From assembly GCF_009495355.1 (NCBI RefSeq), contig NZ_VZAD01000042.1, positions 1 to 64,000 on the forward strand: 64,000 nucleotides of DNA, read 5' to 3'. This DNA is from Segatella copri. Lineage in GTDB: Bacteria > Bacteroidota > Bacteroidia > Bacteroidales > Bacteroidaceae. The position numbers were made by a program, and so were the translations under genes. Of the stretch, positions 17,109-33,729 are shown one piece after another; within the stretch, counting starts at the first letter, position 1; each line of letters starts with the position of its first letter. The notes beneath the pieces are model-generated. The model made no database searches and had not been told where the DNA came from. It saw only the letters and a program-made list of their open reading frames with translations.

Positions 17109-17126
17109 CAAAAAATATCGGAAAAG

Positions 17127-17215: not shown

Positions 17216-17485
17216 ATGTATTTAGACAAAGCAAAAAAAGAAGAGATCTTTAGCAAGTACGGAAAGTCTAACTCTGATACTGGTTCTGCTGAGAGCCAGA
17301 TAGCATTGTTCTCATACCGTATTGCTCATTTGACGGAACATGTTAAGCAGAACCGTAAAGATTATACTACAACACGTGCATTGACACAGCTTGTAGGAAA
17401 GCGTCGCGCTTTGCTCGACTACTTGTACGACCGCGATATCAATCGCTACCGTGCCATCATCAAGGCCCTCGGTCTCCGCAAGTAA
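17216..17485 (+). CDS. rpsO: 30S ribosomal protein S15
   Basis: An 89-residue S15, full length, with the conserved central and C-terminal helices (SQIALFSYRIAHLTEHVKQN and LVGKRRALLDYL). It binds 16S rRNA early in 30S assembly. It is monocistronic here, with its own promoter and terminator. Confidence 0.97.
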   Translation: MYLDKAKKEEIFSKYGKSNSDTGSAESQIALFSYRIAHLTEHVKQNRKDYTTTRALTQLVGKRRALLDYLYDRDINRYRAIIKALGLRK

Positions 17486-17516
17486 TCTTGAGCAATTTTT
17501 GCTGAAAGGCATTTTA

Positions 17517-17551
17517 AAATCCCATCACTCTCACGAGCGATGGGATTTTTT
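17517..17551 (+). terminator. Intrinsic terminator of rpsO
   Basis: The stem AAAATCCCATC / GATGGGATTTTTT encloses an 11-nt loop and is followed by T residues, 32 bp after the rpsO stop. Confidence 0.88.
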
Positions 17552-17570
17552 CGTATATTTTCTTTATATA

Positions 17571-17654
17571 TTTCCTTTATAGAGGAAGGATTTTCACTAA
17601 AAGTTTCCCCTATAAAGGAAACTTTTTGCTATTTTCTTTCCATTATAAAGGAAA
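17571..17654. repeat. Array A: three 18-bp palindromes at 33-nt period
   Basis: Three units, at 17571-17588, 17604-17621 and 17637-17654, follow TTTCCnnTATAAAGGAAA (the first is slightly degenerate). Each pair is separated by exactly 15 bp. The array starts 14 bp past the stop of the last gene of the kinase/protease operon. A matching array in the same orientation lies at 33897-33974, just beyond the operon's upstream end. The middle unit with its flanks can form a 10-bp stem (AAAAGTTTCC / GGAAACTTTT). Confidence 0.85.
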
Positions 17655-17667
17655 TTTTGTATATTTT

Positions 17668-20274
17668 TTATCGTACAACGACTTTCTTACCTTTTATTAT
17701 ATAGACACTAGAAGGCAGACTAATCGTTTGACGAACATTAGGTTCTGTAAGGAAAGTCTTCACACAGCGACCATCCAAGGCATGAACACTTAACTTCTCT
17801 ACCTTTGCAGACAATACCGAAATAAAGCCCTTGCCACATTCTACTTGGCAACCATTCTGTACTTCAACAGAAGAAATAGAAGATGACTCTCCTGTCAGAT
17901 AAACCAAGACTCGACCTTTATAGCCATCAAACCAGAACTTCTTGGTAACATACCAATATTGCCTTACAGGCCATTTATCATAACTCAAGACATTATGTCC
18001 ACCACCATCCCAAACTTCAATATCTCCATACATAAAGTTTTCTCCTACTTCATCAAGCGTAAAGGTTTCTTGGATGTAAGTAACCGCTCCATCGCCAGGA
18101 AACTCTATATCCTTCATGTGAAGAGACTTTTGAGGCCATTTATAACCACTGCACCAACCACCTGCTACATATCGCAAGGTTGCTGTTGCCCCCGTATTCT
18201 TGATTCCAAAAGAAAATGTAACCTTATCATCATGAACTCGTGGAGTAGCTATAATATCGCAACCGTTCTGATAAGACTTCTCCGTCTCCAAGTCGTTGTC
18301 ATCAGCATTACTTGTGGAACTTATCAGATACAAGACTGGGGTTGAAGTATGCTCTACTGTGAATGACTTGGCATCAACAAGTAGTTGATTACCATAATCA
18401 GCATCCTTTACCCAAAAATAAAGCGAACCAGCTGTTGGCGTAACCACAACTTTGCGAGTGATTGTGCCATGAGCAGGAATTGTGACATACAAACTTGTCA
18501 TACTCATCGTAGGACACTCGTTAGTGCTATTGCTATAAACATCGGCAAAGCCATCATATTCATAGTCCAAATTGTTTGTTATCACCACATTGAAGACATT
18601 TTCCGTAGCACTAACCAACTTGTCGTTTTCCTCCCCCAACTCAACACTTACAGTAAAAGGGGAAGACATTCTCGTCAACTTATTAGCAGTAGCAGCCACA
18701 ACAAAAGCCCCATGAGCTGCATTACTACAAATATCCCATTGCTTGCCGTCCTTACTATATATACCATAAATGGTCGTATTACCAATAGGGAAAGCATAGT
18801 TGAAATCCAAAGGACAAAGAGCGAAGCTTCCTCTTCCCTCTGTTGTAACACCAGGAATATTCACCTTTGCAGAAGACGATACCAACTGGATATTTCCATT
18901 CTTATCCTTCACGCCCAAAGCCAAATACCCTGCGAAATCATCAGAACTCAAATTCCCAAAACAATATGTCACCTCTCCTATAAAAGCATCCGAAACATAG
19001 TTTCGGGTATCCGAAGTGATAGATAGGGTCACTTTTCCCTTGTAATCATATAAGGTAATCGGAGCAAACACAGTCAAAGGTTCATCCTTTACCCCATTGT
19101 CTGGTTGAATGCCTATAATCATACTACAATCACGATTATAACCATCAGTAGAAGTACTTGACGAAGCACCTTCATAGTTGGCATTCAGTACAGTCAAGTC
19201 AAAATAGCCATTCAGACTACCACTCCATCCCCAGTTGATATGATACAGTCCATTTCCATCAGAGCCATCACAAATAAATTCATGTCCGCCTGTGGAAGAC
19301 TGCCCAGAATATAATATCGGGCGTTTTTCCGCCAATTCATTGTCTATAAGCGCATTCCACTGTGCTTGCGTAAAACTGGAACGGCTGACATCCTGCATCA
19401 AGTCCGCATCATAACCAAAGTAGTGGGATAACACATAAGGCGTAATGTTCGCAGAAGAGCCAGACGGTGTATAGTCCATTTTTACAGCAAATCCACAATC
19501 TATCAACAAAGAAGCCACTTCTATACGTTGAGAAGAAGTATACTCGCCACTAACATATCTATCTAACATTTCATCCCAATTGTAGGTCTCGTCCTCCTTA
19601 CTTCTTCCTGCAATAGACAGTCCTAAGGTTTTAGTCGTATAGGAAGGTATATCGGCTTGCAAAGCCGCAGGATACCTATAATACTTCATGATTTGCGCCA
19701 TCGCCGTTGCCACGCATCCTGCAGGATACGTATAACAACTCTCATTATCATCACGAGGACAAAAGTCATTGTAAGGACCACCTTGTCCCCAAGCGATATT
19801 TCCCAACAAAGGAGAAACCGCCGTTGATGTTACTGACGAACGCAAACTTTCCACTTCCTTCAACTGGCGAGTCGCTGCAACATTGCCTTTATTCACAGCC
19901 TCCACCATAGATTGATAAGCATTCATGTAGCTTTTGAAGTTATCAGGCAACTGTGCTTCATCGTATGTGCCTTGGTCAGAATAGCCTACAATCTCAGGAA
20001 ATCTATCATCGCCAGAGACGATGACAAAGCCCTTAGCCTCAGCATTGGAGAACACATAGTATGGGCTTTGTTTCTCCACAACACCCGACATCCCCTTAGC
20101 AAGGTTTCCTTGTGTTCCATCGTCCACAACTTGCAAGCCCATTTCAGCCGCCTTTTTCTCGGCAATAGCCTTGGCTTGCAAATAACTTCTCGGTCCTGCC
20201 CAAGAACAAGTACATAACAAAGAGAACAACACCACGAAGAGTCCTCTTGGAAAACTAAATAGATAATTACTCAT
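17668..20274 (-). CDS. Secreted C10 (streptopain-like) cysteine peptidase, operon-distal
   Basis: An 868-residue exported protease. A signal peptide covers about residues 1-26, a propeptide/inhibitor-type region about 28-150, and the C10 catalytic domain about 155-390. The nucleophile is Cys187 in PAGCVATAMAQIMKYY and the partner His331 is in GGHEFICDG, followed by HINWGWSG, the usual C10 signature. Beta-rich repeats fill about 400-780, and a short C-terminal module resembles secretion/sorting tails. C10 enzymes include SpeB and Prevotella interpain. It is the last gene of the apparent eight-gene operon, 20 bp after the PP2C gene. It is paralogous to the peptidase at 29619-32591 but clearly diverged. 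Confidence 0.92.
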   Translation of the reverse strand: MSNYLFSFPRGLFVVLFSLLCTCSWAGPRSYLQAKAIAEKKAAEMGLQVVDDGTQGNLAKGMSGVVEKQSPYYVFSNAEAKGFVIVSGDDRFPEIVGYSDQGTYDEAQLPDNFKSYMNAYQSMVEAVNKGNVAATRQLKEVESLRSSVTSTAVSPLLGNIAWGQGGPYNDFCPRDDNESCYTYPAGCVATAMAQIMKYYRYPAALQADIPSYTTKTLGLSIAGRSKEDETYNWDEMLDRYVSGEYTSSQRIEVASLLIDCGFAVKMDYTPSGSSANITPYVLSHYFGYDADLMQDVSRSSFTQAQWNALIDNELAEKRPILYSGQSSTGGHEFICDGSDGNGLYHINWGWSGSLNGYFDLTVLNANYEGASSSTSTDGYNRDCSMIIGIQPDNGVKDEPLTVFAPITLYDYKGKVTLSITSDTRNYVSDAFIGEVTYCFGNLSSDDFAGYLALGVKDKNGNIQLVSSSAKVNIPGVTTEGRGSFALCPLDFNYAFPIGNTTIYGIYSKDGKQWDICSNAAHGAFVVAATANKLTRMSSPFTVSVELGEENDKLVSATENVFNVVITNNLDYEYDGFADVYSNSTNECPTMSMTSLYVTIPAHGTITRKVVVTPTAGSLYFWVKDADYGNQLLVDAKSFTVEHTSTPVLYLISSTSNADDNDLETEKSYQNGCDIIATPRVHDDKVTFSFGIKNTGATATLRYVAGGWCSGYKWPQKSLHMKDIEFPGDGAVTYIQETFTLDEVGENFMYGDIEVWDGGGHNVLSYDKWPVRQYWYVTKKFWFDGYKGRVLVYLTGESSSISSVEVQNGCQVECGKGFISVLSAKVEKLSVHALDGRCVKTFLTEPNVRQTISLPSSVYIIKGKKVVVR

Positions 20275-20294
20275 AAAAAATAACTATGATTTTG

Positions 20295-21029
20295 TTATAT
20301 TACTTCCACCGTCACAACCGTGACATTATCTTTACCACCAGCTTGCAAAGCAGCTTGGACATACTGTCGTGCCCCACAGCTGTTCTTCAACAATTCATGG
20401 ATACTTTCATTAGAAACCAAGTCTGACAAGCCATCTGAACAAATTACATATCGATCACCAACGACTAACTTCATAGACTTTACATCCATGAACGCCGTAC
20501 CTGTTCCTAATGCATTATAGATAAAATTACTTGGGATGCTGTCATCACCCAACCTTGCTCTTTCGGAATGATCATCTGTCAATTGTTTCATACATTCATA
20601 CCGATAACGATAAGTTCGACTGTCACCCACATTCATGACAAAGAGGCTATTACCATAAGCCAACAATCCCGTAAAAGTAGTTCCCATATTTTGCAAAGAA
20701 GAGATTCGCTCGCCTTTTTGCTTTATTTCGGCATCGACGTCTCTTGCCCACTTTTTTAAACGCACAATTACAGCATTGTCGTCCAAGTCCATAGGAAGCA
20801 CCTCCACGAAATCATTAAAAGAAGTTGCAGCCATTTCTGAGGCAACTTCTCCTCCATTCATTCCTCCCATCCCATCAGCCACAATTGCCGCAAAGGGAAT
20901 ATTCGGTGTCAATTCAAAAGTAAATGACACTGAGTTATCTCTTATAAGTTCGCCGAACACAAGAGCCATATCTTCATTATTTGACCGCAACAATCCTTTA
21001 TCGCTAACGACCTCATACTTTATCTTCAT
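20295..21029 (-). CDS. PP2C-family Ser/Thr protein phosphatase
   Basis: A 244-residue cytoplasmic PPM-type phosphatase with all the usual motifs in order: RSNNED near the N-terminus, VADGMGGMNGGE with metal-binding Asp and Gly, FVMNVGDSRTYR, LTDDHS, CSDGLSDLV and GGKDNVTVV at the end. All metal-binding aspartates appear intact, so it should be active. It lies 36 bp after the FHA gene and is the natural eraser for the kinase encoded upstream in the same operon. Confidence 0.95.
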   Translation of the reverse strand: MKIKYEVVSDKGLLRSNNEDMALVFGELIRDNSVSFTFELTPNIPFAAIVADGMGGMNGGEVASEMAATSFNDFVEVLPMDLDDNAVIVRLKKWARDVDAEIKQKGERISSLQNMGTTFTGLLAYGNSLFVMNVGDSRTYRYRYECMKQLTDDHSERARLGDDSIPSNFIYNALGTGTAFMDVKSMKLVVGDRYVICSDGLSDLVSNESIHELLKNSCGARQYVQAALQAGGKDNVTVVTVEVI

Positions 21030-21065
21030 CTAAATCACAATATAAAAATGAACGACTCTTACTTT

Positions 21066-21602
21066 CTATTCTACCATAAAGTCATAATAGGAAGCAATTC
21101 TAACTAAATCCCCCATGCAGAAAGTTCCCACTGGCGAACATGGCATCCCATTAACCTTGGTTCCATTTCGAGAACCTAAGTCTGTGATTTCCCATCTACT
21201 ATCAGATAGTTTTCTTAATCTTGCATGAGTTCCCGATATGTATATACATTTAGAGAGGGCTGACACATAATTGCCATTTGTTCTACCTATAACGCCACCA
21301 TCCAACAATGGTAACTTGATATTCTCTGCACGACAAAACAGGCAAGTTGGTTGCTGAACAGAAGGAGTCGGTGATGCCACTGTGTTTGAATAAGCAGATG
21401 TAGTATCCTGTTGAACAACCTCTTGGACTACACTCTCCCTTTTAGTAGCTTCAACCAACTTACTACCGCATTTTCCACAACACTTGCCTGGACCCTTACC
21501 AACGATATGACAATTAGGACAGACATATTGTACTTGCCCACATTGGTCACAGAACAGACTATCAGAATCTATATCTGCACCACATTTATAACATTTAGCC
21601 AT
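21066..21602 (-). CDS. Zinc-ribbon / FHA-domain protein
   Basis: A 178-residue cytoplasmic adaptor. Residues 1-50 contain four Cys-x-x-Cys pairs (starting CYKCGADIDSDSLFCDQCGQ), enough for two zinc ribbons. After a Ser/Thr/Pro-rich linker, residues about 90-178 form an FHA domain with the phosphopeptide-binding residues in GVIGRTNG, SGTHARL and LGSRNGTKVNG. FHA domains bind phosphothreonine, so this is the likely reader of the operon's kinase. It lies between the AAA+ and PP2C genes with short gaps (18 and 36 bp). Confidence 0.93.
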   Translation of the reverse strand: MAKCYKCGADIDSDSLFCDQCGQVQYVCPNCHIVGKGPGKCCGKCGSKLVEATKRESVVQEVVQQDTTSAYSNTVASPTPSVQQPTCLFCRAENIKLPLLDGGVIGRTNGNYVSALSKCIYISGTHARLRKLSDSRWEITDLGSRNGTKVNGMPCSPVGTFCMGDLVRIASYYDFMVE

Positions 21603-21620
21603 TTTTATAACTTTATATCA

Positions 21621-24600
21621 TTAATCTTCTACCAACATATCATCCGCTTCAAAGACATGCAAATCCGCTCTATCAAAGTTTGGTAGATATATACGTTTAC
21701 GCAACCGCCTACCTTGATTGAGTTTTACTCTATCATAATAGTTGTTTACCTCACGAGCATTAGCAAAGTGCGCAGTCTTATTATATACCAAATCAGAAAA
21801 GTATCTGCACATCGCATCATCAGCCTGCTGCGTCATGCGCATCTCATTCTTCAGCACAATTTTCCTAAAAATTTCCGCCAACTCTTCCGCAGTATAGTCC
21901 TCGAAGTGAATTGTTCTCGTATAACGAGACTCCAAACCTGAATTTGTTGCCAGCCACTGTTTCATCTCTTTAGGATAACCAGCAGCAATACTAACGAAAC
22001 GTCCTTTATAATCAAGCAACTTGGTTAAGAGCACAGGCATCGCATCCTTGCCAAATCCACTATCACAAAGGGAATAAGCTTCATCAATAAAGAAGATACC
22101 ACCCAAGGAACGCTCTATCTGTTGAGCCGTTTTCTCGGCAGTTTGACCGACATATTGCGCTATCAAATCTTTACTTGTCACTTCCACAACCTTGTTAGAC
22201 GGCAATAGTCCCAAGGAATAGAATATATTGCCCATGATACGAGCCACAGTAGTCTTTCCCGTACCAGGATTACCAACAAATAAATAATGATCCAAGTTGA
22301 TTTTGACAGACTTTCCACTTTCCTTTGCCCTCATCTGCTCTATTACCAAAGTGTCCGCCATTTCTCTGACGGCTTCCTTCACCGCTTTCAGTCCCACAAG
22401 GGAATCCAACTCCTTCATACATTCAGACATATCCACTTTCTTTGGTGGATTGTAAGGTATATCTTCCGCCTCTATTGTAGCAAGTTGTTCCAACGTAGCA
22501 TCATAAGGCAATCGGTCTGCCTGACGACTGATTGTTTCATTAAACAAAGATATGATGGTGCCAGCATTACCAAAATTTTTGCTTTTAGTCGTAACCATCT
22601 CTTCTATTTTTCTCGTCAACAAAGTCTCGGCATCTGGTGTCAGATGATACTGTCCCTTATCAACTTGCTGCTTGAATATCTTAACTAAATCATCTGCAGA
22701 ATAGTCATCTATATGGATGCGATGGGTAAAACGCCGAGACAAGCCTGGATTTGCATTAGCTATAAACTCCTCTATTTCTTGCTTATATCCTGCAATAACC
22801 GTGACAAACTTACCTGCATCATTAGACATACGAGTCATCAATGCTTCTACAGCAGCAACACCGTCGGCATCTTTCTGTCCTGGCGTGTTCATTGGAATCA
22901 AGTTATAAGCCTCATCAATAAACAAGATACCGCCCATAGCCTCATCCACCGCCTTGTCCATATTGATACCTGCCGAATTAGCATAACTATTGAGCAAAGT
23001 CTTGCGTTCACGTTCCACGACATGACCTTTAGAGAGAATACCCATAGCTCGGAACACTTGACCCAAACGTTTGGCAATCATCGTCTTACCAGTTCCAGGG
23101 TTACCAGTTATTGCTATATGGATATTGGTAAGCGAGGCATTTCCTGCTCCCATTTCTGCACGTCTTCTTTCATTCCTTACTTTTTTAGCAATAGACTTCA
23201 ACTGTTCCTTGACTTGGTCCATACCAATGATGTCATCCAAAGAAGCCAACACCTCATCTACACTAAGAATCTTACCTGTCTCCTCGCCTTCAATATCATT
23301 CATTGTGATGATTCTCTCCTCACCCTCATGATAACTTCCGTTTTTCCTTGCCTCGACCATACGTGAGTGCAAAGAAGAGACAGCTCTATTGAAAACATTT
23401 CGCACTTCACGAGCGTTTCCAAACGTTCTCACTCTCCCTTGATACATTCTGTCAAAGAAGTTGCCTACTTGGATTTCTGCATCAGAAGACAATACATAAT
23501 GTTCTTCCGAATGCTTCAACATACCCTTAAATATCTGAGTCAGCTGCGCTCCATTATAATCTGGAAAATTGACGACCTTGTTGAAACGCGAAGCTAATCC
23601 AGAATTAGCTTCCATGAACTCACCCATTTCTTTGGTGTAACCAGCTATAATAACGACCAATTTTCCTCGACGATTCTCGGCACAAGTGATAATTGTATCT
23701 ATAGCTTCTTGACCAAAATTATCATTCTCTGAATTCTTTAGCGAGTAAGCCTCATCTATGAAAAGCACTCCCCCCATAGCCTCATCAAACTTTGCCATCA
23801 CACGCTTTGCCGTATCACCCACATAATTAGAAACCAAATCCGCACGACTTACTTCTACAAGTTGACCTATAGGCAATGCCCCCAATGCATTAAGAGCCTC
23901 CGCAAAAAGACGAGCCATTGTCGTCTTTCCTGTGCCAGGATTTCCAAGGAACTGGTAATGATCTGTGAGTTTGATGACAGCATCTTCGCCTCTCATGCGC
24001 CTTTGCTCCTCTATATTATAAGCAATCTCCTCAACAGCTTTTTTCACTTCCTCTATCCCAACATATTTCTCGAACTCTTTTTTAATGTCCTCATACGTCT
24101 TCGGACAATATTCTGTGCCCTCTACGAGATTCACATCAACCTCCTTCACATGGAACCCCAACTGACAAGCAGCCAAATCTATCTCGTATGCTTTCGATGC
24201 AGCATTATGGCCTTGTGGACGTAACTGTTCATTTGGATGGCGCAAATCATTGTTGAAGATACGACACAACTTCTCCTTAGCCTCCTCTGTCATAGCTAAA
24301 TGATACTTATGTTTCAGAAGAAAAGCCGTTATGTCAGCCATATCCTTGGCACGAAGCGAAGGCAAGTCATAGAAGTAGTCTATCTCGGCAGCTGTGGCAG
24401 GGTTATTGTCGAAAAACTCCTTCAGCCTTTCCAACCCTGTGAATACCACAACAGGCTTAGTAGGGTCTTCACGCCAACTCCTTACATATTTCAAGATACT
24501 GTCTATCTGCTCAACTTGCTTTCCACCAATATCATTCACCAACTTATGCGCATCCTTAACAATGATTACACATGCTCCATACGTTTCCTCATTCTTATCC

Positions 24601-24998
24601 AAGTTTTTTATAAACTGCGGATAATCAACAGGTGATATAACGACAGGGGCTTCTTTGGATATAAGCCCATTATGATACAATTCATATCCAATTGTCTTAG
24701 CAACCGTCAACTTGCCAGTTCCAGACTCACCCGTGACAACAAAGCTCAAGTTCATCCTTTGTTTCATATTGAAACGACGGCATCTAACATCCATGGAGCG
24801 AGCCTTACCTACAACATCCCGCAATAAGCGCACTATCTCGCTTTTGCCTATCAGAGAATCGAAACCAAATTCCTCGTCCTTGCGATTTGGCTTACTATCA
24901 ATAGCCACCTGTTCATCTGGTACAATGATAGCAGCCCCACACCATTTGCAAAAACGAGCAATTGACCGATTATCTTTATTGCATTTAGTACATTTCAT
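21621..24998 (-). CDS. Four-module AAA+ ATPase (CbbX/SpoVK type) with zinc ribbon
   Basis: A 1125-residue cytoplasmic protein. An N-terminal zinc ribbon (residues 3-20) precedes four ATPase modules. Module 1 has Walker A GESGTGKL at 90-97, but its Walker B position reads VIIVKDAH (about 144-151) without the catalytic Glu, so it is probably degenerate. Modules 2, 3 and 4 have GNPGTGKT at 352-359, 632-639 and 909-916 with FIDEAY at 413-418, 693-698 and 970-975. Those three are the CbbX/SpoVK/EccA type, which remodel proteins or assemble secretion machines. Three intact modules in one chain is more than CbbX or EccA carry. It lies 20 bp after the kinase gene. Confidence 0.92.
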   Translation of the reverse strand: MKCTKCNKDNRSIARFCKWCGAAIIVPDEQVAIDSKPNRKDEEFGFDSLIGKSEIVRLLRDVVGKARSMDVRCRRFNMKQRMNLSFVVTGESGTGKLTVAKTIGYELYHNGLISKEAPVVISPVDYPQFIKNLDKNEETYGACVIIVKDAHKLVNDIGGKQVEQIDSILKYVRSWREDPTKPVVVFTGLERLKEFFDNNPATAAEIDYFYDLPSLRAKDMADITAFLLKHKYHLAMTEEAKEKLCRIFNNDLRHPNEQLRPQGHNAASKAYEIDLAACQLGFHVKEVDVNLVEGTEYCPKTYEDIKKEFEKYVGIEEVKKAVEEIAYNIEEQRRMRGEDAVIKLTDHYQFLGNPGTGKTTMARLFAEALNALGALPIGQLVEVSRADLVSNYVGDTAKRVMAKFDEAMGGVLFIDEAYSLKNSENDNFGQEAIDTIITCAENRRGKLVVIIAGYTKEMGEFMEANSGLASRFNKVVNFPDYNGAQLTQIFKGMLKHSEEHYVLSSDAEIQVGNFFDRMYQGRVRTFGNAREVRNVFNRAVSSLHSRMVEARKNGSYHEGEERIITMNDIEGEETGKILSVDEVLASLDDIIGMDQVKEQLKSIAKKVRNERRRAEMGAGNASLTNIHIAITGNPGTGKTMIAKRLGQVFRAMGILSKGHVVERERKTLLNSYANSAGINMDKAVDEAMGGILFIDEAYNLIPMNTPGQKDADGVAAVEALMTRMSNDAGKFVTVIAGYKQEIEEFIANANPGLSRRFTHRIHIDDYSADDLVKIFKQQVDKGQYHLTPDAETLLTRKIEEMVTTKSKNFGNAGTIISLFNETISRQADRLPYDATLEQLATIEAEDIPYNPPKKVDMSECMKELDSLVGLKAVKEAVREMADTLVIEQMRAKESGKSVKINLDHYLFVGNPGTGKTTVARIMGNIFYSLGLLPSNKVVEVTSKDLIAQYVGQTAEKTAQQIERSLGGIFFIDEAYSLCDSGFGKDAMPVLLTKLLDYKGRFVSIAAGYPKEMKQWLATNSGLESRYTRTIHFEDYTAEELAEIFRKIVLKNEMRMTQQADDAMCRYFSDLVYNKTAHFANAREVNNYYDRVKLNQGRRLRKRIYLPNFDRADLHVFEADDMLVED

Positions 24999-25018
24999 CT
25001 TACTTTTCCAAAAGAGTT

Positions 25019-28000
25019 TTACTCCACGCTATTACCTTGCGGATCCTTCACTTTAGAGAGTATTCCACTGTTGGTCTCAACACCATCTTTCTTGTGGTTA
25101 TATTCTATAGTCATATTGCTTTCCTTTGGCTCATAGAACTTCATCTCATAATAGTCATTGTCCATTTTTGCTCCATTTTCATCCAAGACATAGAATATAT
25201 AATTTTCTTTGTCATCTGGGTTGACCTCTGCCTGCAATTTATAGGATGTGGTCTCGTCCCCCTCTATCGTCAAATCTGCCAAGACTTTCTTCCTATCGTC
25301 AGTAATATCAACAACAAGTGTATATTTGCCGTCATTTTGAAATTCATAGGTTCCACACATTCTCTGCAAGAACATTTCTTCCCCCAAAGTAGAAGTTTCT
25401 TCCTTCTCAGCTTCCACTTTATCCTCAGCCTCGTTATAAGGAGTATCTTGAAGGCTCTCGGCATTCTCTGCTTCCGCCTTTGCCTCCATTTCTGCCACAT
25501 ACTTGTCATGACTATGCTTTTGCACAGCCTTACTTCCAATGACGAAGCATAATAGTAACGAACCAAGAGCCAAAGCGAACAATACCATTGCTTTCTTATA
25601 CAACTTAGGACGGCTACTCTCCGCAACATTGGCACTTTCACGATACACATTTACAGGATAGTCCTCACTATCGCCCAAGAGTTTTTTCTTAGAGTCGAAA
25701 GCTTCTCCCATTATCACACGTTTTCCTGCATCTATCAGTTTTGCGTCGTCAGGATCAATATCTTTTACAAATCCATTCTTGACCATGTGGTATGCTTGGT
25801 ATGCCAAGTACCAACAATAAGCCACCATCACCCATGGGAACAAGAAACCGAATGTCCTACAGAACCATGAAATGATAAAGTAACCTAAGAGAGCACCGAT
25901 CAAGCCACCAGGCCAACTTGCAAGATACAGTCCAATGATACCTACGATAATCGCAGCGATAAAGCCCACTCCCTCACCGACATCGACCATGACCACATCA
26001 AAGAATGACTTGCCTGCATAAAGAGAAAGAACAGCAAAGACAATACTGATAACCACAAGAGGCAAAATGCAAAAATTTTTCGTTATCTTCTTGAGAGGCT
26101 CCAGTTTATCCCATTGCCTCTCCATGCGTTCTTTTGCACCATTCACTTTCGAATCAGCAAGCAAACCTTGCTTGTAATACTTGCTACTCGTTAGTTTGGA
26201 AGATATAAACTTGTAATAATCCCATGTCAAGTCATAATAGGAACGTTTCTTATAATCTGTAAAAGGATCCTCCTGGAAGAACAAAGCGCACCAATCTGCC
26301 AACCTGTTCTGCTCCTTCTCCGACATATTGAACACATCCATAAAGTGACTATCTATATCATTCAACGAGCTAAACTTCACTTTAGCAACAGTTATCGTAG
26401 GCACCTTTCCAGATATACCCGTAACAGCCTTCATTCTTGCCAATTCTTCATTATAAGGACCATAACGTTTAGAATTTGACGCAGACTTTAAGTCCAGGCA
26501 CTCGCAAATATAGTTAGGATACTTTGCATATTTTGGACGAGAATAGAAATAAGCGTCCAAGCGTTTCTCATCTATATGACTAATAAGCTGTCCCTCATAG
26601 TTACATACAAAAAGAACGTCTTGATTATCATATTCTTTTACCAATAGCTCCGCAAAATCAGAAGGTGTCACCAGTTCCGATCCTTCATTTACTTTCTTGA
26701 AGTCAAAGCCACAGTCAAACGCTATCGTATAAAGCATCAACCATCCTTTGACGGAATCCGCAGCGTTCTCATATTCACTTAACTTACTCTTAACCATCAT
26801 GAACTTCGCCAAGTCTCGTTCTGACAACCAAGCCATAAAATCAGGTTCGAGCAACCTTTTCGCTTCTTCGGTCGTTAAGTCATTTACCTTTGACAAGAGT
26901 TCGTCAAGACTATTGATTTCGATTACCTTTTCGGCATTCGGATTTTCCAGAACAGGGAGTTCTGGAGGTAAGCGATACAGCAGATAAGGAAGACCAGGTG
27001 TCAAGCGATACATCAGCAATGCTGTATATACCAAAGGTTTTTCCAAAACATCCTCTGGCGAAGAAGGCAAAGAGTCCTGCCCCACAACAGTATGCAAATA
27101 TACCCACAAGATATGCTGCTCATCTTTAAGTTCCTCGCAGTATTCCGCAAAATGAGCATATATTTCCTCACCTATTTGACTCAGAGGCACAACCTTTCCC
27201 TCCTTACCTACATAAGGAGTATCTGGGTCTATAACCAACCGTGCCGCATACAATCCCGAATCTCTATTGTCAGGATAAATGTTTTCCGTTATCTCCTCTA
27301 ATCTCGCAGCCTCAGGGAACATATCGTATTCTTTCAGCCAACTGCCTATCTGGTCTTGATACAGATAACGTTTTGCCAAATCTGGGTTCTCACCCATCAT
27401 CTTTGCCAAATCCTGCAAGCTATTTGCCACCAATCCCTCTTTTACATTGAACGGGATACGGAAATCGGTACGTCCGTTAGGATTGATTTGGAATATTACC
27501 TTGCCTTTTGCCCATTCCTCAATCTCAGCCATACCTGCACGATCCTTCACATTATTACGTGTCAATGCCATCATAAGCGAAAGCGTGTGCTCGGATATTT
27601 CCTGAAGAGTAGGATAAGGAAGTTTGTTCTCTTGCTTCATAGTCACAAGTTCCTGCTCCTTTCCTATCAAGAAGCCTTCACCTTTCCACAGGGCGACAAG
27701 TGTCATACCCAAGGAATAGAAGTCAGCCTTAGTGGTCACCACTGGCGAAAAGCTCTGCATCTGCATATACATTTCAGGAGCAGCATAGACTACCGAGCGA
27801 GCTTCCTCTATAAGTTGGCGACGCTTGTCATAAATCATATTTCCTTCATCATCCAGCATCATGGCTATACCGAAATCCGCCAAGACCAAGTGTTTGTGTT
27901 CCTTGTCCACATACAAGAAGTTGCCAGGCTTTACGTCCCGATGCAAGATATGATGGCGATGACAGAAGTCTATAGCGATTGCCATTTCCAAAGCAACACG

Positions 28001-28561
28001 CTTAAACTCGTCTTCCTTTCCCTTAAAGCTTACCTCAGCCAACGAGCCACCTTCACAATATTGCATCACCTCAAAGTCATGTGTCCAACCCGTTTTAGGG
28101 TCTGTCCACAAGCCATGGGAATAAATGCCAACGAGAGGGCTGTCTGCTCCTCTTGTCTTAGTCATAATCTCTTCCAACACATCATGATTAGGATGGCGAT
28201 TAGGCTTATATATCTTCAATACGAAAAATTCGTCTTTTCGCTTTACCAAATAGACAAAAGCTTCGCCTGAACTTGCAGACAACAACTTTTCATACGTATA
28301 CTGCTTGGGACTATCCTGTCCCATACTCACCAATTCTATCGTTTCAAACTTTGGTTCTTCCTTTGGAGCCGTAGGAACAACATCACTTGTTCCACCTGGA
28401 ACAGCCGTCGCATTAGGAACGGCTGTAGCATTAGGAATAGCAGTCTCCGACATTGGGACTGCTGTTGCTTCAGGAATCGCCGTAGTTTCTGGCACTGAGG
28501 TTGCGTCAGGTATCGCTGTAGCACCTGGCACCATCGTGTTCATTTCATTCGAAGGATTCAT
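25019..28561 (-). CDS. Transmembrane Ser/Thr protein kinase
   Basis: A 1180-residue kinase. Residues 1-60 are low-complexity repeats of an (A/E)TA(V/I)P type. The kinase domain spans about 85-350 with all key residues: Lys116 in FFVLKIY, HRDVKPGNF at 207-215 (catalytic Asp209), DFG at 229-231 and APE at 261-263. A long middle region (about 355-825) has no domain I recognise. About four hydrophobic segments lie at 829-930, another TM helix at 989-1010, and then an outside-facing domain of about 170 residues that begins acidic. It is the only operon member that clearly spans the membrane between the cytoplasmic reader/eraser proteins and the exported peptidases. Confidence 0.93.
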   Translation of the reverse strand: MNPSNEMNTMVPGATAIPDATSVPETTAIPEATAVPMSETAIPNATAVPNATAVPGGTSDVVPTAPKEEPKFETIELVSMGQDSPKQYTYEKLLSASSGEAFVYLVKRKDEFFVLKIYKPNRHPNHDVLEEIMTKTRGADSPLVGIYSHGLWTDPKTGWTHDFEVMQYCEGGSLAEVSFKGKEDEFKRVALEMAIAIDFCHRHHILHRDVKPGNFLYVDKEHKHLVLADFGIAMMLDDEGNMIYDKRRQLIEEARSVVYAAPEMYMQMQSFSPVVTTKADFYSLGMTLVALWKGEGFLIGKEQELVTMKQENKLPYPTLQEISEHTLSLMMALTRNNVKDRAGMAEIEEWAKGKVIFQINPNGRTDFRIPFNVKEGLVANSLQDLAKMMGENPDLAKRYLYQDQIGSWLKEYDMFPEAARLEEITENIYPDNRDSGLYAARLVIDPDTPYVGKEGKVVPLSQIGEEIYAHFAEYCEELKDEQHILWVYLHTVVGQDSLPSSPEDVLEKPLVYTALLMYRLTPGLPYLLYRLPPELPVLENPNAEKVIEINSLDELLSKVNDLTTEEAKRLLEPDFMAWLSERDLAKFMMVKSKLSEYENAADSVKGWLMLYTIAFDCGFDFKKVNEGSELVTPSDFAELLVKEYDNQDVLFVCNYEGQLISHIDEKRLDAYFYSRPKYAKYPNYICECLDLKSASNSKRYGPYNEELARMKAVTGISGKVPTITVAKVKFSSLNDIDSHFMDVFNMSEKEQNRLADWCALFFQEDPFTDYKKRSYYDLTWDYYKFISSKLTSSKYYKQGLLADSKVNGAKERMERQWDKLEPLKKITKNFCILPLVVISIVFAVLSLYAGKSFFDVVMVDVGEGVGFIAAIIVGIIGLYLASWPGGLIGALLGYFIISWFCRTFGFLFPWVMVAYCWYLAYQAYHMVKNGFVKDIDPDDAKLIDAGKRVIMGEAFDSKKKLLGDSEDYPVNVYRESANVAESSRPKLYKKAMVLFALALGSLLLCFVIGSKAVQKHSHDKYVAEMEAKAEAENAESLQDTPYNEAEDKVEAEKEETSTLGEEMFLQRMCGTYEFQNDGKYTLVVDITDDRKKVLADLTIEGDETTSYKLQAEVNPDDKENYIFYVLDENGAKMDNDYYEMKFYEPKESNMTIEYNHKKDGVETNSGILSKVKDPQGNSVE

Positions 28562-28589
28562 TTTAATTATGCTTAAAGATTAGTAATTA

Positions 28590-29546
28590 TCAAGTCAAGA
28601 TTTCTGCTTCTGTGATTTTGGTTCGATACTCCCACTCTCCACCAAGTTCCTCTCTTACGCACTCGGATGGTTGGTTATGCCTACAACCACAATAGTTGCA
28701 AACCCAACAACTCTTTACTTTTTCACTTATCTGTATTTTTCTTGCACAGATAAAATTACGTTGCACTTCTGGAGTGGCATTAGTATCCGGAAAAATGGAT
28801 GCCATAGCAGCTTTCATTTCTTCTATTTTCCTACGCAAATCCTCCACAGAAGGACTACATTTATGCAGTTTAGGACTTGGCTTCTTTATTTTTGGGGCAC
28901 TATGCTCTTCGAGGATTGGTTTATCATTGTTGGAAATGGGCGCTTTTCCTAAATGAGAAAACAGATTACGATATTTATTCAAAAGTTCCTTATCATCATC
29001 GCTTAGCACGTCGATAGCCCCATCATCCATCTCATCCTTTTCTGATGCAAACAAAATGCTATCTTGCATATCCGCCAACTCCATCGCCAACTTCCATACC
29101 TTTTGCATACGAGGATCATTCTTCGCCTCCTCAATAGCCTGACGTGCCATCTCGTTGAGAGGAGTATTACATACTCTACAAAAGCTTCTAAAGTTCAAGG
29201 TCTTGCATTGAGGGCACTCGATACCCTTTGACGGATTTCCACAATTAGGGCAAAAGAGGTCATCTGCCTCTTTCGGTTCTCCACAAAAAGAACAACGAGT
29301 TGCATTGACCGGGTGCATACAATGCGGACACAATGCCATTCCTGCACTTACAGGTTTATGACAACAAGGACAGTCTCTTGCAAGAAGTGAATAGCCACAC
29401 TCTTCACAGAAGCGCATATCCGAGCTTATCATCCCCCCACAATTCGGACAAGAAGAGACATGAATTTCTTCCTCTTCTCGCTGCAAGTTAACTTGCTCGC
29501 TTATCCCTTGATGCTTATAGATATTTTGGAAAGATTGTTTTTCCAT
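28590..29546 (-). CDS. Multi-zinc-ribbon protein
   Basis: A protein of about 318 residues with a string of Cys-x-x-Cys knuckles in its N-terminal half (for example SCPNCGGMI, FCEECGYSL, DCPCCHKPV, LCPHCMHPV, RCSFCGEPK, FCPNCGNPS, ECPQCKTLN, FCRVCNTPL), forming several double zinc ribbons. The middle is charged and helical, and a last CWVCNYCGCRH cluster sits near the C-terminus. No catalytic domain is visible. Such ribbons often act as protein or nucleic-acid adaptors. I took the ATG at 29546, since the codon three residues upstream is TTG. It sits between the first C10 gene and the kinase gene. Confidence 0.85.
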   Translation of the reverse strand: MEKQSFQNIYKHQGISEQVNLQREEEEIHVSSCPNCGGMISSDMRFCEECGYSLLARDCPCCHKPVSAGMALCPHCMHPVNATRCSFCGEPKEADDLFCPNCGNPSKGIECPQCKTLNFRSFCRVCNTPLNEMARQAIEEAKNDPRMQKVWKLAMELADMQDSILFASEKDEMDDGAIDVLSDDDKELLNKYRNLFSHLGKAPISNNDKPILEEHSAPKIKKPSPKLHKCSPSVEDLRRKIEEMKAAMASIFPDTNATPEVQRNFICARKIQISEKVKSCWVCNYCGCRHNQPSECVREELGGEWEYRTKITEAEILT

Positions 29547-29567
29547 CAAATACAAAATATACGTTAC

Positions 29568-29613
29568 CTAAAGTTTCCCACCCCCTATAATTCATAGGGG
29601 AAGGAAACTTTAG
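29568..29613. repeat. Compound palindrome inside the operon
   Basis: An outer perfect 11-bp stem (CTAAAGTTTCC / GGAAACTTTAG) and an inner 7-bp stem (CCCCTAT / ATAGGGG) enclose a 5-nt loop. The outer stem matches the sequence around the palindromes of the flanking arrays. It begins 6 bp after the stop of the operon-proximal C10 gene. No T-run follows on the minus strand, so a transcript-processing or stability hairpin is more likely than a strong terminator. Confidence 0.75.
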
Positions 29614-29618
29614 TTAAA

Positions 29619-32591
29619 TTAGTTCCTAAACTTTATGGTCTTTGATGCAGACTTCAAGATATAAGTTCCTGAAGGAATCTGAGACATCAATTTTGGCAGA
29701 CATTGTTCTGAAGCTATGACTTTTTGGATAACCTTACCACTCAAATCATAAACTGTAATAAGCTCTCCATCCTTAAATATGCCATTAGCACCTGAAGCCT
29801 TTACATTATCAATACCCGTCAGTGTATTACCTTGAAGCGACAAACGAGCTATCGTTAAATCTTCATTCAGTAAATAGCCCCTTCCTTGCCAAGTATATTT
29901 TTGTAAAAGAAGGGTTACTTCATATTTTTCATTTGGGTCAAGACTTGAAGACAACACCACATTTGCGGTCTCTCCTGCTGGTATGTCTATATTTTCCAAG
30001 GTTTCAGAAATCAACTCGCCAGACTTCTCATTATAGAACAAACCTGTCAATGTTGCTCCAGAGACCATATAACTGCCAAAACTCTTCAAGCCCAACTGAA
30101 GAGCCAAGCCAGAACTTCTCGTAGAATTGCTTGCAACCTTAGCTGAAACCAACTGGAAATAATCTGTTATATTTTTATCTTCATAATAGAATGTATAGCT
30201 GTGCGCATCGTCGTGCTTATAATACTCAGATGGCATCAAACCTACACGTTCTCCATTAGGAGTTACATATCTGCATCTAAATTCATAATTACCTGTAAGT
30301 GGGAAGAAGAAGCGATTCAAGGTGATACTCTGTTTTGGCACCCATTCATTGTCTACAGCAAGCAATTTCTCATCACCAGTATCCTTGTTAATCATATAGA
30401 CATTCATTCTCACAGGATCTTCATTCTTATTTGCATAACTATATTGAGGAGTAATCAATTTCAACAGTGTATTGTTCGGAATGTAGTTGCACCCATGAGC
30501 CTTCACATCGTCTGCCTTATAGGTAGAATAACTTGCATAAGCCAAATTGTTGCCATCAAGGATAGGATAAGCAGGTTGCTCTTGTACATCAATATAGAAA
30601 TTTCCTGCCAAGGTTACATCTTTTTCATCTTCCGGCAACTCTATTTTGTATCGACCAGCAGGCATTGAGAAACTATTGTCCACATTCTTAGGCACACACT
30701 TGGTAATGATAGTAGAAGTATAATCATCATAAATATGATGGAAAGAAGAAGCCTCTGAATTCTTATAAAGTTTTCCTGTCTCTACATTTCTGAAATACAA
30801 AGTAGTACCATTGGAATAGCCCTTTCCTGTAAGACTAAGGTAGAAAGCGGTCTTTGCATAAATCTCACTTGCAGGGGCAATATTCTGTATTGTCAAAGAG
30901 CCATCAATATCATCACCCTCTATTCCACGAATAATCATTCCTGCGCCATTGTTGACAATCTCCATCGTTGGAATAATCTGCTTTGGAGCTGGACACAAGA
31001 GAGTTTTTCCGCTCTCGTCCTGATAGGCAACACGAATGTCATATACACCATCATCCAATCCAACAGGCACCTTACTAAAGCCATGCACCAGATTCCATCG
31101 GTTAATATTAGGGAAACCAGAAACACTTTGATTGTAGTATCCTCCAGGTAATATTTTCACGATATTACCATCCTTGGTCAAAACTGTAGTAAAATACGTT
31201 TGCTTGCTGTCATAAGAATTACGAATCAGATGATAATACATCTTAGACTTAGAGGTAATGACATCAGAGGTAGAACTTTGAGCAGAGACGTCCGCAGAAG
31301 ACAATGTTGCCAAGCCTGTGTTTGGTTTACTTTCCACCGCATCTCCTCGACTGGTCACCCAATCATAAGGAACAAAAGCTTGATAGACTACTTCCTTGTA
31401 ATCTGTCGAACGAGGCTGAATGCCAATAATCATTTCGTGCTGACAACGAAATCCTTGCTCATAATTAAAGGAAATTCCAGGATTGAGAATAGCTACATCA
31501 TAATATCCATCCATAGATCCAGCCCATCCCCAATTGACATGAACATAATTTTGTTCATCAATACCATCCAATACAAAGCAATGACTTGTTCGAGGGTCAA
31601 TTATGACTCCAGCACCTCCCTCCAAGTCTGTGGCAGAATAGATGATAGGACGACCAGCCTCCAACTCTTCCTGAATCATACTCATCCATTTCTTCGTTGA
31701 GATATAATAATCACTCTCCGTAAACATATCCCAAGAATAAATATAATCACGAGGCACAAACATACAGTCAAAGTTATAGTATTTATTGAGTGCCACAAAT
31801 GGAATGTTTGCAGATGTCGAGGTATACCCATAAGTAGCCTTACTTGCAATGCCACACTCCAACATCAATTTGCCGACAGCATCCTTTTGGGTTTTTGTAG
31901 CATTGTCATCATAAGTATTGAGCATATTCTTCCAATCATAGGTTGTTGTAGAATAGTCTATATCATATTCCGTCTCCGAATCGAGATGTGCATAATAAAG
32001 ACTTCCTCCACCTTTTCTGTCTTGGTGATAGTAATTGAGAACTTGCGCCAAAGCAACAGGCACGCAACCTACTAACGCTGTTTGCTTACCATTGGAAGGA
32101 CACTTACTGTTGAATGGAGCAGATTGTCCCCATTGTGTCTTAAGCAAAGGAGCTACAGGCTTCACTGTTGGTCCGTCCCAAGAAGGTTCTTTTGTACCCA
32201 AAGTCGTAGATTTAGCCATAGCCTGCTGATACCCCTTCAGCCAACTTTTCATTGCATCTGGTACATTGGCAGCATCCACACTTCCTGTATCAGAATAACC
32301 AGCGATAGTAGTATTGCCATTGCCTGTACAAACCAAAGCAAAACCACCTCCCTCAGCATTGAAAGCATAGACACTTGACTCTTGCGAAGAGCTTGCGCTA
32401 TTACCTCCAATAGATTTTGCATAATTACCACTCTCGCTGACCGTTACAGAAGTCAACTTAACATTAGATACCGCTTTTCTCTTCTGCAAGAAGTTCATTG
32501 CAGCATTTCTTGCATCATCTTCAGTCTGTGCACACAATGGCAGAGACAGCAAGACGGTAACCAAAAAGAATAGATGTCTTAAATTTCTCAT
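29619..32591 (-). CDS. Secreted C10 (streptopain-like) cysteine peptidase, operon-proximal
   Basis: A 990-residue exported protease. Signal peptide about 1-21, propeptide about 22-145, catalytic domain about 148-390. The nucleophile is Cys176 in LVGCVPVALAQVLNYY and the partner is His337 in TSHCFVLDG, followed by HVNWGWAGSMDGYYD. It differs from the other C10 protein around the nucleophile (GCVPVA versus GCVATA), so the two may cut different substrates. Beta-rich modules follow. The C-terminus (TVYDLSGKVIQ ... GTYILK) resembles type IX secretion sorting tails. It starts 21 bp after the antiterminator gene and is followed by a strong hairpin. Confidence 0.92.
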   Translation of the reverse strand: MRNLRHLFFLVTVLLSLPLCAQTEDDARNAAMNFLQKRKAVSNVKLTSVTVSESGNYAKSIGGNSASSSQESSVYAFNAEGGGFALVCTGNGNTTIAGYSDTGSVDAANVPDAMKSWLKGYQQAMAKSTTLGTKEPSWDGPTVKPVAPLLKTQWGQSAPFNSKCPSNGKQTALVGCVPVALAQVLNYYHQDRKGGGSLYYAHLDSETEYDIDYSTTTYDWKNMLNTYDDNATKTQKDAVGKLMLECGIASKATYGYTSTSANIPFVALNKYYNFDCMFVPRDYIYSWDMFTESDYYISTKKWMSMIQEELEAGRPIIYSATDLEGGAGVIIDPRTSHCFVLDGIDEQNYVHVNWGWAGSMDGYYDVAILNPGISFNYEQGFRCQHEMIIGIQPRSTDYKEVVYQAFVPYDWVTSRGDAVESKPNTGLATLSSADVSAQSSTSDVITSKSKMYYHLIRNSYDSKQTYFTTVLTKDGNIVKILPGGYYNQSVSGFPNINRWNLVHGFSKVPVGLDDGVYDIRVAYQDESGKTLLCPAPKQIIPTMEIVNNGAGMIIRGIEGDDIDGSLTIQNIAPASEIYAKTAFYLSLTGKGYSNGTTLYFRNVETGKLYKNSEASSFHHIYDDYTSTIITKCVPKNVDNSFSMPAGRYKIELPEDEKDVTLAGNFYIDVQEQPAYPILDGNNLAYASYSTYKADDVKAHGCNYIPNNTLLKLITPQYSYANKNEDPVRMNVYMINKDTGDEKLLAVDNEWVPKQSITLNRFFFPLTGNYEFRCRYVTPNGERVGLMPSEYYKHDDAHSYTFYYEDKNITDYFQLVSAKVASNSTRSSGLALQLGLKSFGSYMVSGATLTGLFYNEKSGELISETLENIDIPAGETANVVLSSSLDPNEKYEVTLLLQKYTWQGRGYLLNEDLTIARLSLQGNTLTGIDNVKASGANGIFKDGELITVYDLSGKVIQKVIASEQCLPKLMSQIPSGTYILKSASKTIKFRN

Positions 32592-32612
32592 AAAGTTAGA
32601 TTTTGAATATTG

Positions 32613-33368
32613 TTAATAATCAGTACACTTTTCCAAATAGTCTTTTGGGATATAAGTTGTAAATATAGTTCCTACTCCTTCTATTATCAAACCTACCCTT
32701 GCTTGTCCCTTGATTCGACAAACCTTACCTTCGAAGCCAACAAACTTTCCTTTCGTAATTTTCACCTTGTCGTCTTTCGTAAAGTTGAACTTGTCATCAG
32801 GAACAAACAACTTATCCTCTTCTTCTACTGCATTCCACTTGACAAAAAGACTTATTTGTTTTTCTGGTATTATCAATGGCTTGATGCCTTTCTTGCCTAT
32901 CATTTTTCCGTTTTCATCTTTGTGTGGTACATAATAATGATGCAAGAAGTCAAGTTCGCCTCTACCCACAAACTTTTTCAATTCCGCCTCCGTACTCTTC
33001 ACAAACAAGAAATTGGGGATTAGGGAAACTTGCTTACATTTGCGCTTGCCATTCTGCACAAAGCATTTTTCCTGCATTGGCAAGAATACCTCAATTCCTT
33101 TCGCCTCCAAAAAATCCTTTGCTTTCTTCTCTTGTCCATACGCAGCCCTCATCAAAAACCAAACCGCCTCTTCCACATTTGCTGCAGAAGAGGCGGTTTT
33201 TATATTGTCTATAGAGCATTTTGCACTCTGCTTTGAAACATAAGTAGGGGTCACCCCATTATGTATATTATAGGGAGACATGGCTACATTTTGTATGCCA
33301 CTTTTAGGAGAGTTAACTCCTTTGTTTTGTCCTTTAAACAAAGAGACAGGCCTTTTATTATTAGGCAT
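32613..33368 (-). CDS. UpxY-like NusG-family transcription antiterminator
   Basis: A protein of about 251 residues. A non-conserved N-terminal extension of about 65 residues precedes an NGN domain (EAVWFLMRAAYGQEKKAKDF ... IEVFLPM ... LIPNFLFVKS) and a C-terminal KOW domain (VKITKGKFVGFEGKVCRI). This matches specialised NusG paralogues (UpxY family) that head capsule operons in Bacteroides and let polymerase read through their own long operons. Here it heads a kinase/protease operon, with no polysaccharide genes nearby. I took ATG 33368; the 15 upstream codons are not domain-like. Confidence 0.85.
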   Translation of the reverse strand: MPNNKRPVSLFKGQNKGVNSPKSGIQNVAMSPYNIHNGVTPTYVSKQSAKCSIDNIKTASSAANVEEAVWFLMRAAYGQEKKAKDFLEAKGIEVFLPMQEKCFVQNGKRKCKQVSLIPNFLFVKSTEAELKKFVGRGELDFLHHYYVPHKDENGKMIGKKGIKPLIIPEKQISLFVKWNAVEEEDKLFVPDDKFNFTKDDKVKITKGKFVGFEGKVCRIKGQARVGLIIEGVGTIFTTYIPKDYLEKCTDY

Positions 33369-33693
33369 AGATTTAGAACAGTTATAACATAAAAAAGAAA
33401 AAGCGGGGATCATGCCTAGTTACCCGTTCTACAAACTGAGGTCCTGAGATTACCCATCATCGCTGAACGAGCAACCACAGACCCCACGCCGATATGAATT
33501 ATATACATCATGATATAATCACACAACGTGACATCTGCCAGTTGCCATGTTCTTGACGATGATTTGAAATTTCTCAGGTTTCAGTTTGTCATGAACAAGC
33601 GCGTAGCAAACGCCCTTCCAAATTTATATTTGTCCCACTCCCTTGCTGTCCCCTGCATTATTCATGCATTCTACAGCTATCGGCATGGGATAT
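33369..33693 (-). promoter_or_regulatory. Long transcribed leader of the antiterminator operon
   Basis: From the promoter at 33699-33729 the transcript would run about 325 nt before the antiterminator ATG. Three short open frames occur on this strand: 20 codons (33624-33686, starting MPIAVECMNN), 25 codons (33581-33658, starting MQGTAREWDK) and 31 codons (33416-33511, ending TSVCRTGN). The last two share one frame split by a single TGA. A GC-rich GATCCCCGC followed by CTTTTTCTTTTTT ends the leader (about 33391-33414) and could be the 3' arm and U-tract of an attenuator, but the pairing 5' arm is imperfect. Confidence 0.5.
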
Positions 33694-33698
33694 ATGTG

Positions 33699-33729
33699 CA
33701 AAAGTACAAGAAATAAATGGAACTTCAAA
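33699..33729 (-). promoter_or_regulatory. Promoter of the antiterminator/kinase/C10 operon
   Basis: On the minus strand, TTTG (complement of 33726-33729) and TACTTTTG (complement of 33699-33706) are separated by 19 bp, a good match to the Bacteroidetes promoter. It is the only clear two-box promoter I see for this operon. Confidence 0.7.

Follow-up and report, generated by a model that had tools for sequence, protein, structure and literature searches.

A candidate phosphothreonine-signalling cassette of five genes within an eight-gene run of Segatella copri

Eight genes lie head to tail in a 64,000-nucleotide stretch of Segatella copri DNA (contig NZ_VZAD01000042.1, positions 1 to 64,000; hereafter the window), and the locus raises the question of which of them belong together and what they do. 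In the direction of transcription they encode an antiterminator of the UpxY family, a C10 cysteine protease (C10a), a multi-zinc-ribbon protein (ZNR), a membrane Ser/Thr kinase (KIN), a protein with four AAA+ modules (AAA4), a zinc-ribbon protein with an FHA domain (FHA), a PP2C phosphatase and a second C10 protease (C10b). The original prediction, made from the letters of this DNA, treated all eight as one system: on sensing an outside signal, the kinase/FHA/AAA+ unit would control the export, maturation or use of the two proteases. Our analysis instead points to the five genes from ZNR to PP2C as a portable phosphothreonine-signalling cassette, in which the tail of the kinase would be autophosphorylated, the FHA adaptor and the AAA+ protein would be recruited, and PP2C would reset the tail. 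On balance we favour this reading, with moderate confidence.

Five genes that stay together, and three that do not

To assess the conservation of the eight genes, we read the neighbourhoods of their relatives. Of the first 61 loci, 45 showed the core genes in the exact order ZNR-KIN-AAA4-FHA-PP2C, as did 18 of 20 loci read later, which makes 63 of 81 together. Among the 16 of the first 61 that depart from this order, some lie at contig ends, some have an opposite-strand open reading frame (ORF) chosen by the caller, and some contain split or extra pieces; eight further loci with an AAA+ relative but no kinase (L020 and L043-L049) had been excluded from the 61. Gene trees of KIN, AAA4, FHA and PP2C, built from 38 of the 52 eligible loci, placed the window with two genomes, G194 and G056, in one clade in all four cases (support 0.81-0.99), apart from the common type of the genus, which forms a single clade with support of 0.25-0.86 across the four trees. 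Pairwise distances among the four genes correlated at 0.91-0.95, with no correction for ancestry. This shared gene order and the agreement of the trees indicate that the five genes move and evolve together, a stronger outcome than the original prediction had claimed when it proposed that the kinase, FHA, AAA+ and PP2C genes belong together. By these comparisons, the window cassette belongs to a rare type, here called type I; the common type of the genus is type II, and type III comprises cassettes whose kinases carry peptidoglycan-binding domains.

Counting the window's own, 123 of the 299 genomes of the genus have a relative of the kinase at E ≤ 1e-30 (122 of 298 others), as do 40 of 131 of the more complete ones. 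Beyond the genus, kinase relatives at E ≤ 1e-40 were present in 6 of 393 genomes of the order, 4 of them outside the genus. Of 395 genomes of the phylum, 7 had a ZNR relative at E ≤ 1e-20, and 5 of these come from two families outside the class. Outside the genus the cassette is therefore rare. Among 76 genomes searched in one distant family, only the three cassettes already known were found, and cassettes of the common type were present in two metagenome-assembled genome records titled Prevotella sp. and Prevotellaceae. A first scan of contigs gave 39 stretches, none of which was confirmed; in a second, 80 loci were kept, 4 with long matches, which were mapped, and 76 that match only within about the first 410 residues. 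Ordinary spread of the cassette on plasmids was rejected, since none of 72,556 plasmid records matches the kinase at E ≤ 1e-30. Separately, an unannotated 11.4-kb record titled 'Bacteriophage sp.' (MT836273.1) encodes at 6623-9046 a protein that shares 27% identity with AAA4 along 73% of its length.

The remaining three genes behave differently. Using phmmer with eight C10 proteins and UpxY as queries (E ≤ 1e-3), we found a C10 or UpxY gene in none of the 81 other loci (0 of 61, then 0 of 20), each read over a stretch of at most 21 kb and many over less. The expectation that all eight genes would stay together in relatives thus held for the five core genes and failed for the two C10 genes and the UpxY gene; the unit occurs without proteases or antiterminator, the pattern that the original prediction had itself named as counting against it. 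Control of the proteases by the unit is now, in our estimate, very unlikely. C10 genes do stand on both sides of the cassette in the same run, with a gap of only 20 bp between PP2C and C10b, and the genome encodes the type IX secretion system (T9SS) protein SprA (SprA_N match). C10a has a Por sorting tail of 20.7 bits, below the cut-off of 23, and C10b has none. C10a and C10b both match PF01640 and PF13734 (the I69 propeptide), have hydrophobic N-termini and retain, by eye, what we take to be the catalytic Cys and His motifs of the family. Against their control by the unit stand, besides the 81 loci, the closer kinship of C10b with a stand-alone C10 protein elsewhere in the same genome (G000:C64, 41.6% identity; six C10 matches in the genome) than with C10a (32% over 413 aligned positions), and the expectation that mature exported proteases would not meet the cytoplasmic kinase domain, although control before export is possible. 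C10a had no relative at E ≤ 1e-60 in the 119 other genomes of the genus searched.

The position of the window cassette offers another account of the proteases. It lies between TypA and FolK-QueA (window 17068-35200), a site that we read in 13 relatives hand-picked from 179 with strong TypA matches. One was cut by a contig end; among the other 12, four held nothing substantial, four a lone relative of C10b, and four other cargo. This other cargo includes a GDSL/MBOAT pair, a fimbrial operon and an AAA-ATPase that has a nuclease domain; the stretch read in the fourth, L143, stops short of FolK. None held the cassette. The lone C10b relatives, in four mutually similar layouts, are 28-30% identical to it and stand in this site without any cassette, which is a further point against control of the proteases by the unit. 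Because the cargo varies among relatives, the site is best described as an integration hotspot with C10 genes among its cargo, and the comparisons suggest that the C10 and UpxY genes are not part of the cassette, their association with it being most likely a local feature of the hotspot. Between the operon and FolK, the minus strand encodes at window 34140-35168 a 342-residue protein in which a zinc ribbon at the N-terminus and what look like membrane segments were identified by eye; it has no Pfam match at E ≤ 0.001 and no match in the stretches of the 13 relatives, so it probably belongs to the variable region. Next to the nearest relatives of the cassette lie a gene for a HerA-like ATPase, named by eye (G194), and a DUF1963 gene (G056).

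Type II cassettes sit elsewhere, in most cases flanked by the genes for an M13 peptidase and homoserine succinyltransferase (HTS). At places of this kind that lack a cassette, M13 directly adjoins HTS in 6 of 12 sites read, including that of the window genome (where the caller gave an opposite-strand ORF at the position of M13), and has other neighbours in the other 6. M13 was found in 20 of 20 genomes searched, namely the window's own and 19 without a kinase match. We therefore rejected M13, ABC-F, HTS and U32 as partners of type II cassettes: M13 and HTS adjoin each other without the cassette, and mark its site.

Threonine arrays on the kinase and their putative reader

Most of the kinases read have a low-complexity stretch ahead of the kinase domain. 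In the window kinase this tail contains seven copies of T-[A/S]-[I/V]-P, compared with a mean of 0.10 and a maximum of 2 in 10,000 shuffles, and the motif occurs neither in the rest of the kinase nor in the other seven proteins of the run. Kinases of relatives repeat their own versions, among them GTAIPQQ, QKTAVAP, DKTLKPD, SGTQRP and DKTVVLG; that of L086 has 11 copies of QKTAVAP, and that of L031 has 6 matches of the DKTLKP type. Two tails outside the two classes scored below, in L094 (8131-11304, genome G290) and L105 (1887-5234, genome G599), show a DKTVVLG-like motif about ten times, and DGTDVMPDGTD.

The motif T-[ILVMF]-[RK] occurs 97 times in 42 type II tails (L088 and L089 omitted), compared with a shuffled mean of 7.0 and a maximum of 14 in 300 shuffles. 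At least one copy is present in 41 of the 42, Asp or Glu stands at position -2 in 70 of the 97, and the serine version occurs 3 times against a shuffled mean of 4.8. The 20 later tails gave 49 copies (shuffled mean 4.1, maximum 13 of 1000) spread over 19 tails, with one serine version and no mirror image. FHA domains are selective for phosphothreonine. A preference for threonine, a short motif and its repetition are what recognition by such a domain would require, and the motifs of the kinase tails look like candidate FHA docking sites.

Other core proteins hint at the same vocabulary. The N-termini of ZNR proteins from loci with R-class tails contain the motif 18 times (shuffled mean 3.5, maximum 9 of 200), and in four FHA proteins from two distant families (L239, L241, L242 and L243) the last residues are a motif of the same class as in the kinase tail of that locus, with DATVRV present in both places in L242. 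Across 56 FHA proteins the motif falls in the last 14 residues of five; in the fifth, L031, it seems to lie inside the FHA domain. The residue that follows G-R in the FHA domain also varies with the tail. Among loci with R-type tails, 43 of 46 have a basic residue there, and among those with TA-type tails, 5 of 6 have a non-basic one (L095 being in neither class); it is again basic in 18 of 19 later loci.

These patterns suggest a more specific proposal, which we put forward as possible rather than probable. The disordered array on the membrane kinase may be a docking ladder for the FHA zinc-ribbon adaptor, which would nucleate a membrane-attached AAA+ complex; in some lineages one FHA protein might chain to the next through its own C-terminal motif; and tail motif and FHA pocket may change together between cassette types, preventing cross-talk. 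Precedents for assembly of this kind are TIFA (PMC7083832) and DgcB of Bdellovibrio (PMC6733907), in which the FHA domain binds a phosphothreonine tail, either its own or that of a neighbouring molecule. Unlike in these cases, the window tail is on the kinase, and an own C-terminal motif is confined to the four FHA proteins of the two distant families.

A proposed mechanism, weighed against known systems

The motifs of the kinase, phosphatase and FHA domains are intact, the FHA protein retaining G-R, S-x-x-H and N-G-T. AAA4 has a Walker A motif in all four modules. The D-E of Walker B is present in modules 2-4, whereas module 1 has V-K-D-A at this position and is degenerate. The ZNR C-terminus (about 28590-28784, minus strand) is a conserved domain without a family match, with invariant R, A, W, C, N, H, P, C, GG and W, and is probably one more zinc site. 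Hydropathy places hydrophobic segments of KIN at residues 830-848, 864-882 and 991-1009, and its C-terminus is presumed to be outside. In two distant families, AAA+ members of about 1390 residues (L239 4811-8968, L241 14075-18253 and L243 3061-7236) have room for a fifth module.

Taken together, the conserved cassette, the agreeing trees, the intact catalytic and phosphate-binding motifs, the threonine arrays and the correlation of tail class with FHA residue are consistent with the following scheme. The extracytoplasmic end of the kinase would read the state of the envelope, and the active kinase would autophosphorylate its cytoplasmic N-terminal tail at the repeated threonines. The adaptor would bind these through its FHA domain, several per tail, and contacts among the zinc ribbons that adaptor, ZNR and AAA4 all carry could gather the four-module ATPase at the membrane, where it would remodel a client protein. 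PP2C would reset the tail.

Several observations weigh against this scheme. Tail phosphorylation, its binding by FHA, recruitment of the AAA+ protein and the envelope signal are all predictions from sequence. T-[ILVMF]-[RK] was picked after the tails had been viewed, many of which were rescored in the count of 42, and the sole out-of-sample test is that of the 20 later loci, of the same type and genus. A tail-by-tail test of homogeneity was passed by 4 of 35 tails, after 18 of 53 entries had been dropped as having no tail that could be cut (the window's among them, and one without a kinase), and the kinases of L095, L105 and L107 fall in neither tail class. Outside the kinase the motif is sparse: it was found in the ZNR N-terminus or the FHA linker in only 17 of 50 R-class loci, the FHA linker showing no enrichment in R-class loci (1 against 1.8 shuffled, in a slice that missed the extreme C-terminus) and a weak one in TA-type loci (5 against a mean of 0.98, maximum 5 of 200), and the window FHA protein has no copy of the motif of its own kinase tail. 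The correlation of tail class with FHA residue is confounded with ancestry, which alone could produce it. At locus L102 the kinase stands without the other core genes in the stretch read, and clade support for the common type is low in some trees (0.25 for AAA4). Finally, a Pfam sensor domain is absent from the window kinase and from 4 of 8 relatives scanned, and AlphaFold models are poor (mean pLDDT 49.0 for the kinase minus its kinase domain and 60.3 for ZNR). A PDB sequence search with the same remainder of the kinase found nothing (best E 0.33).

Among the closest known gene sets are the PknB/PstP/FhaA-FhaB modules (with GarA and OdhI) of Actinobacteria, which also bring together a membrane Ser/Thr kinase, a PP2C phosphatase and FHA proteins. 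The window cassette differs in having no PASTA match, in the four-module AAA+ and zinc-ribbon proteins as regular partners, and in carrying the threonine array on the kinase itself. PstP shares an operon with PknA/PknB (PMC12088040). A cell-envelope regulator of this kind, with wall-synthesis substrates as its outputs and the AAA+ protein as one substrate or chaperone among several, overlaps our preferred reading and differs from it mainly in what the output is; we judge it unlikely. The gene set is the same in kind, one common-type cassette (L042) follows a LysM-glucosaminidase gene, and kinase C-termini carry a peptidoglycan-binding or SH3 domain in 4 of 8 relatives scanned (PG_binding_1 in 3 of 3 type III kinases, bacterial SH3 in that of G535). 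In contrast, PASTA was matched neither in the window kinase nor in the 8 relatives, and the Pfam matches listed for the five core proteins include no wall-synthesis family.

A defence role, as an anti-phage or conflict system with a phosphorylation-gated AAA+ effector, is unlikely in our view. Its patchy distribution in the genus and residence in a variable hotspot would fit such a role, as would the resemblance of the kinase domain to the MADS kinase mad6 (PADLOC, E 5.9e-30). Yet PADLOC matched only stretches of the kinase and AAA+ proteins, with a weak match for PP2C (E 0.0014) and none for ZNR, FHA or UpxY; the common type sits at one place, between M13 and HTS genes that are direct neighbours in half of the sites without the insertion; and no nuclease or toxin domain appears among the Pfam matches listed for the five proteins (for AAA4, the best 25 of 53). 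Among six proteins scanned, similarity to the mad1-mad8 set was confined to mad6 (kinase; best 25 of 34 matches) and mad8 (AAA). No vWA match, as a TerY-P triad would have, is among the matches listed for the five core proteins (again the best 25 of 53 for AAA4). The Pfam-scanned genes of the window and relatives include no structural gene of a type VI secretion system, in a scan that covered part of the window and did not extend to the genome.

Two sets came nearest among those in the papers searched, and both differ in composition. The KKP cluster of Pf prophages also combines Ser/Thr kinases, PP2C and FHA, with two kinases that have fused cold-shock and FHA domains (PMC11341870); the window cassette has one kinase with neither fusion, and a separate FHA protein alongside AAA+ and ZNR. 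An actinobacterial zinc-ribbon kinase is found with PP2C and vWA genes inside conflict systems (PMC7159879), a set whose composition differs from ours. AAA4 belongs by sequence with the CbbX/EccA/SpoVK family, matching TIGR02881, TIGR02880 and TIGR03922 in three to four stretches and, in a PDB search, the solved structures of EccA1 and CbbX; unlike these, it has four tandem modules behind a zinc ribbon, and no Rubisco or type VII genes accompany it in the cassette. The cassette appears to be undescribed, and of the kinase/PP2C/FHA signalling kind.

The run as an operon and its leader

Domain searches confirmed the family that had been assigned to each of the eight genes, and the run has the form first described, with all eight on the minus strand and separated, from 5' to 3', by 21, 63, 28, 20, 18, 36 and 20 bp over 33413-17668 (Table 1). 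The start of UpxY had been placed at 33368, which is an internal ATG; its longest ORF starts at 33413. ZNR starts with TTG at 29555, with an ATG at 29546.

Table 1. Features of the eight-gene run and its leader (window coordinates).
Feature	Position	Strand	Remarks
Bacteroidetes-type promoter match, TTTG-N19-TAnnTTTG	33699..33729	-	286 nt upstream of UpxY ORF start
UpxY-family antiterminator	32613..33413	-	NF033644 132.7 bits, cut-off 100; NusG-type domain from residue 85
Terminator-like hairpin	33161..33199	-	17 bp, U-rich tail; inside 5' part of longest UpxY ORF; overlaps possible GTG start
C10a, C10 (SpeB-like) cysteine protease	29619..32591	-	PF01640 182.4 bits plus I69 propeptide; hydrophobic N-terminus; sub-threshold T9SS sorting tail
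ZNR, multi-zinc-ribbon protein (core gene 1)	28590..29555	-	Double zinc ribbon 49.2 bits; conserved C-terminal domain without a name
KIN, Ser/Thr kinase (core gene 2)	25019..28561	-	PF00069 92.6 bits; N-terminal Thr-repeat tail, long middle region, hydrophobic segments
KIN residues 1-78, Thr tail, candidate phosphothreonine docking array	28328..28561	-	7 copies of T-[A/S]-[I/V]-P
AAA4, zinc ribbon and four CbbX/EccA-like AAA+ modules (core gene 3)	21621..24998	-	PF00004 in 4 stretches
FHA, N-terminal zinc ribbons and C-terminal FHA domain (core gene 4)	21066..21602	-	PF00498 37.6 bits
PP2C phosphatase (core gene 5)	20295..21029	-	PP2C_2 44.7 bits
C10b, second C10 protease	17668..20274	-	PF01640 213.4 bits plus I69 propeptide; hydrophobic N-terminus; 20 bp after PP2C

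Taking TTTG-N18-21-TAnnTTTG to be the Bacteroidetes-type promoter consensus, we found 7 matches in the whole window, with 1.08 expected from shuffles. Two other minus-strand matches within the operon lie inside genes (C10a and AAA4); a sigma-70-type scan was uninformative (54 matches against 45.3, sd 6.1, in shuffles). The short same-strand gaps, and the position of the run's only promoter match outside genes, upstream of the first, make a single transcript of the whole run likely, so that the cassette is probably co-transcribed here with the two C10 genes and the UpxY gene.

A gene of the UpxY family heads the run, with a promoter match upstream and, near its start, a terminator-like hairpin of -28.8 kcal/mol (z -7.7) that was equalled in stability by none of 200 shuffles. 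UpxY proteins are reported to prevent termination in leaders upstream of their own genes (PMC7819879), which makes the original description of this one as the run's own antiterminator plausible; as reported for UpxY in Bacteroides fragilis, the protein probably allows polymerase to pass the terminator in its own leader and go on into the long operon. The arrangement resembles that of Bacteroides capsule operons in having UpxY as first gene of a long run, a distant upstream promoter and a hairpin near the start, and differs from it in that the operon encodes proteases and signalling proteins and no capsule, and that the hairpin falls within the longest UpxY reading frame. A UpxY-like gene (E 3e-12) is also present at 17681-18208 of L049 (G056:C13), a 20-kb stretch that contains an AAA4 relative and lacks the cassette. 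Elsewhere in the window, a Mur ligase and an alanine racemase are fused in one ORF (127-2604, minus strand).

Ser/Thr kinase signalling has, to our knowledge, been little studied in this phylum, yet 122 of the 298 other genomes sampled from the genus carry the kinase. The cassette would couple Hanks-type kinase signalling to an AAA+ remodeller. Of this pairing, as of the cassette itself, we found no description in the parts of the open-licence PMC literature searched. Its threonine arrays give a sharp prediction of which residues may be phosphorylated and which domain would read them.

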